Shown here one piece after another: positions 2,633-5,463 of a DNA stretch of 20,318 nt. Under the pieces are notes generated by a model. The model ran no database searches. It was not told the DNA's origin and saw nothing but the letters and a program-made list of their open reading frames with translations. Source of the DNA: a virus; the IMG/VR virus record IMGVR_UViG_3300040801_000403, positions 1-20,318 of that record, one strand, 5' to 3'. The first letter of the stretch is position 1. Each line of letters opens with the position of its first letter. A program made the translations under genes and the position numbers.

Positions 2633-4747
2633 GTGTCAGCAAAGCCGAAATATGAAAAGCCCGGAAGCATTGTCGAGCTGGCAACAAGGCTGTCGGATCT
2701 AGGCTACTGGCCCGTTCCCATCCCGGCCGGCCACAAGGGGCCGACAATCGAGGGATGGCAGAACCTGCGCCTCGCCTTCGACACGATCCCCGACTATTTT
2801 ACCGCGCCGCAGATGCTCGTCGGCGTCCTGCACGTCAACCTGCTCGCGCTCGACGTCGACGTCTACGATGCCGACCTGTCGCGCGAGATCGCGGCCGAGG
2901 CATTCCGGCGATGGCCGACCGCGCTGGAGCGGATCGGTCAAGAGCCGAAGACCGCCATCATCCTGCGCATGGACGAACCCGGCTTCAAGGTGCGCAACAC
3001 CCTCAAGGCCGAACGCATCACGGACGACGGCGAGGTCATCGAGGCCCAGGTCGAAGTGCGCTCCGTCACCCGCCAAATGGTCGCCTATGGTCGCCACCCC
3101 GACACCGGCAACGTCTACCGCTGGACCCGCGGCGAGCTTTGGGAAACCCCAAGAGGTGATCTCCCGGAGGCAACGCAGGCCGACGTGCAATCGTTCCGCG
3201 ACTGGTGCGACGATCGCATCCGCGAATGGGCCGGCATCCCGAAAGACAACGTGGTCCACATGGCCGACCACACGCGCAGGGAGGACGCGCCGCCAAGCGA
3301 AGCCGCGTTCATGGAGGCGCTCAGCTACCTCCCCGCGTCCTGCCCCTACGACGACTGGCTGCGCGGCCTCATGGGCATTCACGAATTCTTCGGCGGCTCG
3401 GCGCACGGCCTCAACGTCGCGCACCAGTGGTCCAGCCCGTATCCGCATTACAGCCGCGCCGAGGTCGACGCCAAGTGGCGCAGCTTCGAGGTCGGCAAGG
3501 GCGTCTCGCATCGCTCCATCTTCCACATGGCCCGCACGCATGGCGCGGACCTGTCAGCCATCGCGCGCAAGCACGCCGAGCCGCAGCGCAAGCACGCCGC
3601 ACCGGACCTGTCCGACTTCGCGCCAGTCGCCGCGTCAGCACCAGTGCGCGGCGCTATTATCATCCCCGGAGCGGCCGAGGAACGGGCCGCCGCGCGGCTG
3701 GAATGGTTCGAGGACATCGAGCCAGCGCTTACCGACACATACCTCGTCAAGAACCTGATCGGCGCCGGAACGCTGTCGGCCGTCTACGGGCCGTCGAACA
3801 GCGGCAAGACGTTCTTCGTCATGGACCTGCTGTTCCACATCGCAGCGGGCATCCCGTGGCGCGGCAGGCGCGTCAACAGGGCCGCAGTGCTCTATCTCGC
3901 GGCCGAGGGCGGGCAGGGCATCAAGAACCGCGTCGCCGCCCTGAAACGGCATACAGGCGTCACGACGCTGCCCTTCGCCATCCGCCGCGCCGGCCTTGAC
4001 CTGTTGCAGGACGAAGCCGACATCCGCGCCGTTTGCGAGCTGGCGCAGGAAGTCCGGGAGCGCAGCGGAGAAGAACGGCTCGTGATCGCCGTCGACACGC
4101 TGTCCCGCGCCATGGCCGGCGGCGACGAGAACGCCGCGCAGGACATGACCGCGCTCATTCGCAACATCGACGCGATCCGCGAAGCGACCGGGGCACACAT
4201 CGTGCTCGTCCACCACACGGGCAAGGACGCAGCGCGCGGCGCCCGCGGTCACTCGTCCCTTCGTGCCGCTCTGGACACGGAAATCGAATTGCAGGCCGAG
4301 GGGGATTGGCGCTGCGCTTTCGTTTCCAAGCAGCGCGATTACCAAGGCGGCGAGGAATTCCCGTTCTCCCTGAAAAGCATTCCTCTCGGCATGGACCAGG
4401 ACGGCGACGAGGTGACCTCCTGCGTCGTCACCGAGGCGGAGGAAGATGCGAGCAGAAAAGCCAGAAAAGGGCTCGGCGGAAATCAGAAGATAATCTTCGA
4501 GACGTTTTGCCAGATGCTCGGAGAGGGCCTTGGAAAGCCCAACCCGGCCGGTGTCGGACTGCCCGACCAGGGCACTTTCTGGACAGTCCCGATGGACGAT
4601 CTGCGGCACCATTCGACCGGCAAATTCAGCGGCTCCAACCCGCGCGAAGCGTGGAGAACGGCTTGGAAGGGACTGACCGAGGACCGGGGCCTGTTTTTTG
4701 CGGCGTCAGGTTTGGTGTGGTGCTCTGACAAGAAGGTAAAACAATGA
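2633..4747 (+). CDS. Prim-Pol (AEP) primase fused to RecA-like helicase
   Basis: 704 residues, a one-polypeptide replication engine. Residues about 10-200 match the bifunctional primase/polymerase (AEP) domain: LALDVDVYD with Asp74/Asp76 as the metal-binding DxD, then QVEVRS (140-144) and a later His in AYGRHPDTGN (about 151-160). Residues about 228-310 resemble a primase C-terminal linker domain (YDDWLRGLMGIHEFFGG, then KWRSFEVGKGVSHRSIFHMA). Residues about 375-600 are a RecA/RepA-type ATPase: Walker A GPSNSGKT (386-393), Walker B LVIAVD (483-488) and sensor-like HIVLVHHTGKD (522-532). The C-terminal about 100 residues may be a DNA-binding module. It would make primers and unwind the fork. 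GTG 2633 has AAGGGA 8 nt upstream. The gene ends immediately before the CCTGAC repeat cluster, the likely origin; one repeat copy lies within its 3' end. Confidence 0.88.
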   Translation: MSAKPKYEKPGSIVELATRLSDLGYWPVPIPAGHKGPTIEGWQNLRLAFDTIPDYFTAPQMLVGVLHVNLLALDVDVYDADLSREIAAEAFRRWPTALERIGQEPKTAIILRMDEPGFKVRNTLKAERITDDGEVIEAQVEVRSVTRQMVAYGRHPDTGNVYRWTRGELWETPRGDLPEATQADVQSFRDWCDDRIREWAGIPKDNVVHMADHTRREDAPPSEAAFMEALSYLPASCPYDDWLRGLMGIHEFFGGSAHGLNVAHQWSSPYPHYSRAEVDAKWRSFEVGKGVSHRSIFHMARTHGADLSAIARKHAEPQRKHAAPDLSDFAPVAASAPVRGAIIIPGAAEERAAARLEWFEDIEPALTDTYLVKNLIGAGTLSAVYGPSNSGKTFFVMDLLFHIAAGIPWRGRRVNRAAVLYLAAEGGQGIKNRVAALKRHTGVTTLPFAIRRAGLDLLQDEADIRAVCELAQEVRERSGEERLVIAVDTLSRAMAGGDENAAQDMTALIRNIDAIREATGAHIVLVHHTGKDAARGARGHSSLRAALDTEIELQAEGDWRCAFVSKQRDYQGGEEFPFSLKSIPLGMDQDGDEVTSCVVTEAEEDASRKARKGLGGNQKIIFETFCQMLGEGLGKPNPAGVGLPDQGTFWTVPMDDLRHHSTGKFSGSNPREAWRTAWKGLTEDRGLFFAASGLVWCSDKKVKQ

Positions 4748-4857
4748 CTTACGCACCCATAAACCTGACAAACCTGACGGAACCTGACGGCAAACCTGAC
4801 AGCGCACCCCAAGCGTCAGGTTTGTCAGGTTTCCCTTTAGGGGAACCTGACACCTGA
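4744..4857 (+). CDS. Possible 37-codon ORF over the iteron cluster (doubtful)
   Basis: An ATG at 4744 forms an ATGA overlap with the primase-helicase stop, and the frame stays open to TGA 4855-4857. The 37-residue product (MTYAPINLTNLTEPDGKPDS and onward) is repetitive because it reads across the CCTGAC repeats. The coupling geometry is like that of real joints nearby, so translation is possible, but the repeats and lack of any domain make a DNA-site function the simpler explanation. Confidence 0.25.
   Translation: MTYAPINLTNLTEPDGKPDSAPQASGLSGFPLGEPDT
4824..4851 (+). other. 12-bp hairpin within the iteron cluster
   Basis: GTCAGGTTTCCC (4824-4835) pairs with GGGGAACCTGAC (4840-4851) around the loop TTTA, with one G-T wobble. 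Its arms contain an inverted and a direct copy of the iteron core. No T-run follows. As DNA it could extrude a cruciform or serve as a priming/initiator site; as RNA it could be a terminator-like or attenuating stem after the primase gene. Confidence 0.6.
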
Positions 4858-4893
4858 CGGTGCGACCTGACGCCCTTCGATGGAGAGATCGAG

Positions 4894-5463
4894 ATGACCC
4901 GACCGAGACGCCAGAAGAAGCCCGACCGCCTCCTGCACCCCGACGCCGTGGAGGTCGACATCCGCGTCGACATGGCGGTCGGCTGCTTCGACGAGGTGGC
5001 CCGCGAGATGGACCGCAAGTGGGGAATAGACCGGCTGCAACAGGTCGTGCCCGTGGAGGTGGCCGACAAATACGGCCGCGCGCTGGCCGCCCTCAATGAA
5101 GCAATCCGCGAACGCGATCCGGAAAAAACGAAATGGAATGCGGAAAACTGCGTAAAGGGAATGCGCAAGATGGACGAGATTGCGGAGGCCGCCGGCAGGT
5201 CGAAAGCGGAGCCGCGATCCTTCGAATACGATTTTGACGGGCTGCACTTCATCGTCGTGGACGACGAAAGGCTTTGGCCGGCATTGCGCGAACAGCGCGG
5301 CGATAAGGTGCTGATCGTCACCCTTCGCGAGGTGGGCGTCGCGCTCAAGGCGCTGCGCGACCCGGCAGTCGCCGCGGTCAAGCACGAGTTCGACCGATCC
5401 GAGATCGTGGCGATCCGACCGCCCGTGACGGGGCCGGACCCCGAAGATGAGATCCCCTGGTGA
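4894..5463 (+). CDS. Hypothetical early protein with acidic DEIPW C-terminus (189 aa)
   Basis: 189 residues starting at ATG 4894 with GGAGAG six bases upstream. The N-terminus is basic (TRPRRQKKPDR). The middle is charged and helical-looking, with EVADKYGRALAALNEAIRER near residues 55-74. A KVLIVTLREVGVALKALRD segment near 138-156 is compact, alpha/beta-like. No family is recognised. The last residues PDPEDEIPW resemble an SSB acidic tail (DDDIPF type) with Trp in place of Phe. Its position immediately after the candidate origin suggests a replication or recombination role, but that is inference. The next gene starts 13 bases after the stop with its own GGAG site. Confidence 0.75.
   Translation: MTRPRRQKKPDRLLHPDAVEVDIRVDMAVGCFDEVAREMDRKWGIDRLQQVVPVEVADKYGRALAALNEAIRERDPEKTKWNAENCVKGMRKMDEIAEAAGRSKAEPRSFEYDFDGLHFIVVDDERLWPALREQRGDKVLIVTLREVGVALKALRDPAVAAVKHEFDRSEIVAIRPPVTGPDPEDEIPW

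Follow-up and report, generated by a model that had tools for sequence, protein, structure and literature searches.

A Candidate Replication Origin behind a Phage Prim-Pol/RepA-Type Primase-Helicase Gene, with Iterons that Covary with the Recognition Helix of the Adjacent Protein

The primase-helicase gene and the array behind it

The stretch of DNA analysed here, referred to as the window, is a 20.3-kb fragment of a tailed phage and contains terminase, portal, and capsid-type genes. It encodes a 704-residue primase-helicase composed of Prim-Pol, PriCT-2, and RepA-type (AAA_25) domains (Table 1). Just upstream, at 816-2275, a RuvC-like resolvase gene is followed by a gene for a Gp2.5-like ssDNA-binding/annealing protein, and these neighbors identify the region as a replication module. 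Both sequence and predicted fold assign the helicase core to the RecA fold of RepA-type hexameric helicases, the respective matches to RSF1010 RepA being 1g8y (hmmsearch, E 4e-9) and 1nlf (Foldseek, E 6e-11). The C-terminal domain is modeled by AlphaFold2 as a winged helix, whose third (recognition) helix opens with NPREAWRT. A sequence search yielded no solved homolog of this domain; its Foldseek matches are weak, many of them being winged-helix proteins of the CRP/CAP type.

The gap behind the gene is filled by an array of short repeats, the first of which lies within the last codons of the gene. The first-pass annotation had described about ten copies of CCTGAC in both orientations, far more than expected by chance, with roughly helical-turn spacing and two strong inverted repeats next to the primase-helicase gene, and this description holds in every part. 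Ten exact copies start at 4705 (minus strand), 4764, 4773, 4783, and 4795 (plus), 4815 and 4824 (minus), and 4846, 4853, and 4866 (plus), all within the 167 bases of 4705-4871. Since the whole window is expected to contain only 9.2 copies (17 are observed), about 0.08 would be expected in this segment (Poisson P ~1e-18). The excess persists when the choice of the word is corrected for: the best 6-mer has nine copies in the tested stretch, compared to a mean of 2.9 in shuffled sequences, and none of 100 shuffles reached nine.

The actual repeat unit comprises about nine bases rather than six, X being GTCAGGTTT and X' being AAACCTGAC. The units are arranged in the order X, gap, X' X' X' X', X X, CCCTTTAGGG, X' X' X', and the spacing within blocks is 7-13 bases, mostly 9-12. 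The two inverted repeats are CAAACCTGAC (4791-4800) with GTCAGGTTTG (4815-4824), and a near-perfect dyad at 4823-4852 formed by TGTCAGGTTTCCCT (4823-4836) and AGGGGAACCTGACA (4839-4852); in addition, the array contains a perfect inverted pair of 19 nt (4761-4779 and 4814-4832). Multiple short repeats at helical-turn spacing beside a putative initiator gene are the hallmarks of an iteron origin. The array region had no match in Rfam.

Table 1. Coordinates of the primase-helicase gene, the array elements, and the adjacent gene in the window
Feature	Position	Strand	Basis or remark
Primase-helicase, Prim-Pol / PriCT-2 / RepA-type (AAA_25), 704 aa, proposed initiator	2633..4747	+	Pfam PF09250, PF08707, PF13481; PHROG primase/helicase families; RSF1010 RepA by sequence and fold
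C-terminal winged-helix domain, proposed iteron reader	4478..4744	+	AlphaFold2 helix-strand-helix-helix-wing, domain pLDDT 87; weak Foldseek matches
REAWRT codons, first turns of the recognition helix (p3-p8)	4643..4660	+	Best covariation window of 364; partial Mantel test; same-branch changes
Iteron X, GTCAGGTTT	4705..4713	+	Within the 3' end of the coding sequence, whose stop codon runs to 4747
IHF-like site AAACAATGACTTA	4739..4751	+	One mismatch to WATCARNNNNTTR; lies in the gap after the first X, ahead of the four inverted units
Four inverted iterons X'	4761-4769, 4770-4778, 4780-4788, 4792-4800	-	Repeat search
Two iterons X	4815-4823, 4824-4832	+	Repeat search
Central palindrome CCCTTTAGGG	4833..4842	.	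CCTWTAGG type, conserved even where the word differs
Three inverted iterons X'	4843-4851, about 4851-4858, about 4864-4871	-	Repeat search
189-aa protein, function not assigned	4894..5463	+	Homologous gene in CRP phages, 32-34% identical

The array in related phages

Related loci were collected from scans of virus collections and from cultured CRP isolates, giving 97 near-nonredundant loci. The closest cultured relatives are the Roseobacter phages CRP-811, CRP-821, CRP-823, and CRP-831, in which a gap of 175-186 bp at the same place behind the helicase gene holds the same arrangement, composed of GTATAAA or CTACAAA words around the same CCCTTTAGGG as in the window. The window shows no obvious AT-rich unwinding element (53% AT in the gap, 43% in the array); the CRP arrays, in contrast, are AT-rich (66-70%). 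Arrays were also found behind RepA-type helicase genes in cultured phages of Alteromonas, Idiomarinaceae, Salicola, and Rhizobium. An origin is not annotated in the retrieved feature tables, and the paper describing the CRP phages mentions neither repeats nor iterons nor a replication origin.

At 66 of the 97 loci, the best 6-mer behind the gene exceeded all 100 shuffles. Among the loci failing this test, 22 belong to a clade with a related C-terminus (L265-L323) that has no array behind the gene or elsewhere within the DNA fetched, except for an unrelated-looking CATCGC cluster in L315. The recognition helices of this clade are of the PRSTYKQAV type; the somewhat similar L397 has an array of GTATGAA/GTAGGAA words, which fits its KQ helix. 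Three more distant helicases, those of Caulobacter phage GB2A, Microcystis phage Mae-JY30, and ctyzp037, likewise have no array behind their genes.

The layout recurring among the relatives consists of two direct units, a gap, four inverted units, two direct units, a CCTWTAGG palindrome, and at least two inverted units. It is filled with different words, GTCAGGTTT in the window and, among others, CGGATAAA, CGGTAGAAA, GTACGATTT, GTATAAA, CTACAAA, CTACATA, GTAGGAA, GTCGGGT, CTACGAT, GTGTAAA, and GGAGGAA at other loci. Thus, of the expectation that the repeat should recur beside homologous primases, the array, its place, and its layout stood, while conservation of the exact CCTGAC word had to be rejected: layout and center are conserved, and the word is not. 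As one word is replaced by another in the same layout, the lack of an exactly conserved repeat would be a misleading reason to dismiss such an array.

The gap before the four-unit block often contains a site resembling WATCARNNNNTTR, the E. coli IHF consensus. Perfect IHF-like sites occur in 17 of 46 arrays compared to 0.9 expected, a count inflated by the shared ancestry of the array loci.

Several loci add to this general picture. In L060, L082, L397, and L475, two words (GTAGGA and GTATGA) are mixed in the presence of a single KQ-type helix; these arrays are perhaps intermediates of a word change, or the reader is perhaps relaxed at one base. Four loci (L383, L408, L484, L485) combine helices of the DRPKK.FDQAI family with GTCCTAAA arrays in the canonical layout. 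The helicases of L138, L149, L153, L157, L163, L168, and L196 have a different, seemingly unrelated C-terminal domain (…KRGLKVLEWL), and behind their genes lie arrays of TGCGGAAGT / TACGGAGGT words, mostly in a single orientation; IHF-like sites lie between the blocks, and several of these arrays have a CCTAAAGG-type center. This domain is perhaps a second reader for the same kind of origin. Finally, on two planctomycete contigs (L016 and L017, Phycisphaerae), related helicase ORFs have similar repeats at their 3' end, with ACGGTCA and CGGCCAAC words around a GC-rich dyad with a CCTTAGG center.

Covariation of the array word with the recognition helix

Comparison of the four CRP phages localizes the protein part that changes together with the word. 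Without the last 100 residues, their helicases are 89-97% identical. The last 100 residues are of two kinds, 98-99% identical within and 70-71% between kinds, and these match the two words; the arrays are 99% identical within a word kind vs. 53-55% between. Most of the difference between CRP-821 and CRP-823 lies in the C-terminus and the array, which were swapped together; judging from the sequences, this is a module exchange.

On the larger scale, word distance correlates with distance at six helix positions after removal of RecA-core distance (partial r 0.35, 0 of 5000 permutations, 32 helix/word combinations), whereas the other 96 columns of this domain show no such correlation (partial r about 0.015, p 0.41). 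As the word registers in this partial Mantel test were assigned manually and the helix positions had been picked after viewing the data, the test was redone with word models built automatically, and every six-column window over the core and C-terminus was scanned blindly. The REAWRT window was the best of 364, with r 0.41 compared to a permutation maximum of 0.30 (n=1000), although the permutations treat related loci as partly independent and thus ignore part of the phylogeny. The four loci with DRPKK.FDQAI helices were left out of the covariation tests.

At single positions, arginine at p3 is paired with G at word position 1: Arg is accompanied by G in 18 of 18 cases, and a non-Arg residue by a base other than G in 11 of 12, with His as the one exception. 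Each of the five G1 changes on the core tree maps to a branch on which the p3 Arg changes as well (tip shuffle 0.0005). Among 17 regions fetched later, the ones that have both an array and an unambiguous helix again pair Arg with G (7/7, all of the KQ-type helix) and Asp with C (2/2). A second pairing, of an acidic residue at p4 with C3, is suggestive: all five acidic cases have C, a result that is not significant on tip shuffling (0.08). The covariation points strongly to the recognition helix in the C-terminal winged helix of the helicase itself as the likely reader of the array word.

The proposed origin, alternative explanations, and known systems

As the architecture is conserved and the word changes with the recognition helix of the helicase, that part of the first-pass proposal which ties origin-type iterons to the primase-helicase is strongly supported; the array at 4705-4871 is most probably the replication origin of the phage, with iterons read by the adjacent primase-helicase itself. 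Further points in favor are the IHF-like sites, the concentration in the array of nearly all word copies of the complete CRP genomes, and the proven origins behind the initiator genes of PICI and pRN1. Two other points were not supported. One is the initiator role suggested for the 189-residue protein, considered below; the other is a change of GC skew at the array, which had been named as a check. In the four complete CRP genomes, the sign of the skew is unchanged across the array; in the window, the skew is ambiguous, with the raw minimum at 4271 and a turn of the detrended curve at ~8 kb, where the structural genes begin. The missing skew turn, the lack of an obvious AT-rich unwinding element in the window, and the array-less L265-L323 clade count against an origin.

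Initiation might proceed in three steps. Firstly, the winged helix would bind the 9-bp units and touch the word with REAWRT, the initial turns of its third helix, as the covariation suggests. Secondly, the units, spaced by roughly one helical turn and grouped in blocks that face each other, would build a compact complex, probably with IHF bending the DNA at the gap site; the conserved layout and the IHF-like sites argue for such a complex. Thirdly, we infer that the mirror-image core XX-CCTWTAGG-X'X' would position helicase subunits symmetrically, the DNA would open near the palindrome, two helicase rings would be loaded facing apart, and the Prim-Pol part would prime. As reader and word lie side by side, they could drift or be exchanged jointly.

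The main rival explanation is that the array is an operator through which the primase-helicase, using its winged helix, controls its own or the next operon, and that replication starts elsewhere. Covariation indeed points to a reader and not to a purpose, the array lies directly before the next gene (4894), and IHF-type bending sites occur in operators too. On the other hand, about ten units in a long symmetric layout are large for an operator, and a consensus scan of 4500-5100 showed neither a sigma-70-like promoter nor a terminator. Moreover, the array keeps its place behind the helicase gene even though the genes that follow it vary from family to family. An operator accounts for size, symmetry, and position less well than an origin does, and we consider it improbable.

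It is distinctly less plausible that the array is a partition, incompatibility, copy-control (handcuffing), or packaging-related site rather than a starting point. Plasmid iterons do serve copy control as well, and P4 carries a further repeat region (crr) in addition to its ori, but each complete CRP genome has a single such array, which holds 10-11 of the 11-13 word copies genome-wide, and in these genomes the array adjoins the helicase gene, far from the terminase genes.

Hitch-hiking, in which the neighboring C-terminus and array are exchanged together without any reading, would explain the block exchange between CRP-821 and CRP-823, and yet is very hard to sustain: the rest of the domain is equally linked and only the recognition helix correlates, and the same residue-word pairing recurs on separate branches. 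Least credible of all is an iteron-binding initiator role for the 189-residue protein, which adjoins the array and is conserved in the CRP phages, because its 190-residue homologs, 87-96% identical throughout the four CRP phages, are still 87-93% identical between phages with different words, and other array-bearing families have different downstream genes.

Several known systems share features with the proposed origin. RSF1010 (IncQ), with RepA/RepB'/RepC and oriV, provides the closest solved helicase core (1g8y/1nlf). There, helicase, primase, and iteron reader act together as three separate proteins on 20-bp iterons, whereas the window encodes one polypeptide with its own winged helix. The helicase of the alpha protein of satellite phage P4 belongs to SF3. 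Alpha is a fused primase-helicase with a Toprim-type primase, and its C-terminal winged helix binds the origin repeats (PMC4234260). The window protein, according to its AlphaFold2 model, likewise has a C-terminal winged helix on a primase-helicase, but it combines Prim-Pol and PriCT-2 with an AAA_25 / RSF1010 RepA-type core instead of Toprim and SF3, and both layout and palindrome differ.

In the pri-rep-ori modules of PICI / SaPI, a proven iteron origin lies directly 3' of the primase-initiator gene, and iterons differ between elements (PMC6092414). The window and its relatives share the position of iterons immediately 3' of a (putative) initiator gene; however, PICI are phage satellites in which two iteron sets flank an AT-rich region, compared to the CCTWTAGG-centered layout with IHF-like sites in tailed phages described here. 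ORF904 of pRN1 is a Prim-Pol-helicase with a C-terminal winged helix and a proven origin directly behind its gene, and origins of this type are poorly conserved in sequence and conserved in structure (PMC4234260). Here the differences are an SF3 helicase and a 100-bp stem-loop without iterons, as opposed to iterons and a RepA-type helicase in the window.

For the evolutionary pattern, we regard RepA of PLE, the Vibrio satellites, as the closest parallel. Its DNA-binding domain and iterons covary and are swapped as a module, as was shown functionally, the exchange being driven by escape from an origin-directed nuclease, Odn (PMC8263062). PLE differ in having a RepA_N initiator, ~30-bp iterons, and two module types, in place of many 9-bp words with residue-level covariation. 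By this comparison, the window system resembles P4 alpha, PICI, and pRN1 and yet is a member of none, since the primase/helicase class and the layout differ. Within the literature that could be searched, the features that appear to be new are a fused initiator of the RepA type combined with this layout, its wide occurrence among phages, and covariation with the word at the residue level.

We think it rather likely, from the sequence comparisons, that phage Prim-Pol/RepA-type primase-helicases carry an origin address behind their gene throughout the superfamily, together with a learnable residue-to-base code of the helix. If so, origins, incompatibility groups, and origin exchanges would be predictable from sequence for many uncultured phages. 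Few phage origins have been mapped, and almost none for uncultured phages; here, a candidate origin can be located by layout alone. The pairs of word and helix also represent a natural experiment, in which a DNA-binding helix shifts its target without losing function. An origin-directed nuclease can favor such switches, as in the PLE/ICP1 case (PMC8263062), and by this analogy the diversity of words may record conflicts over phage origins.
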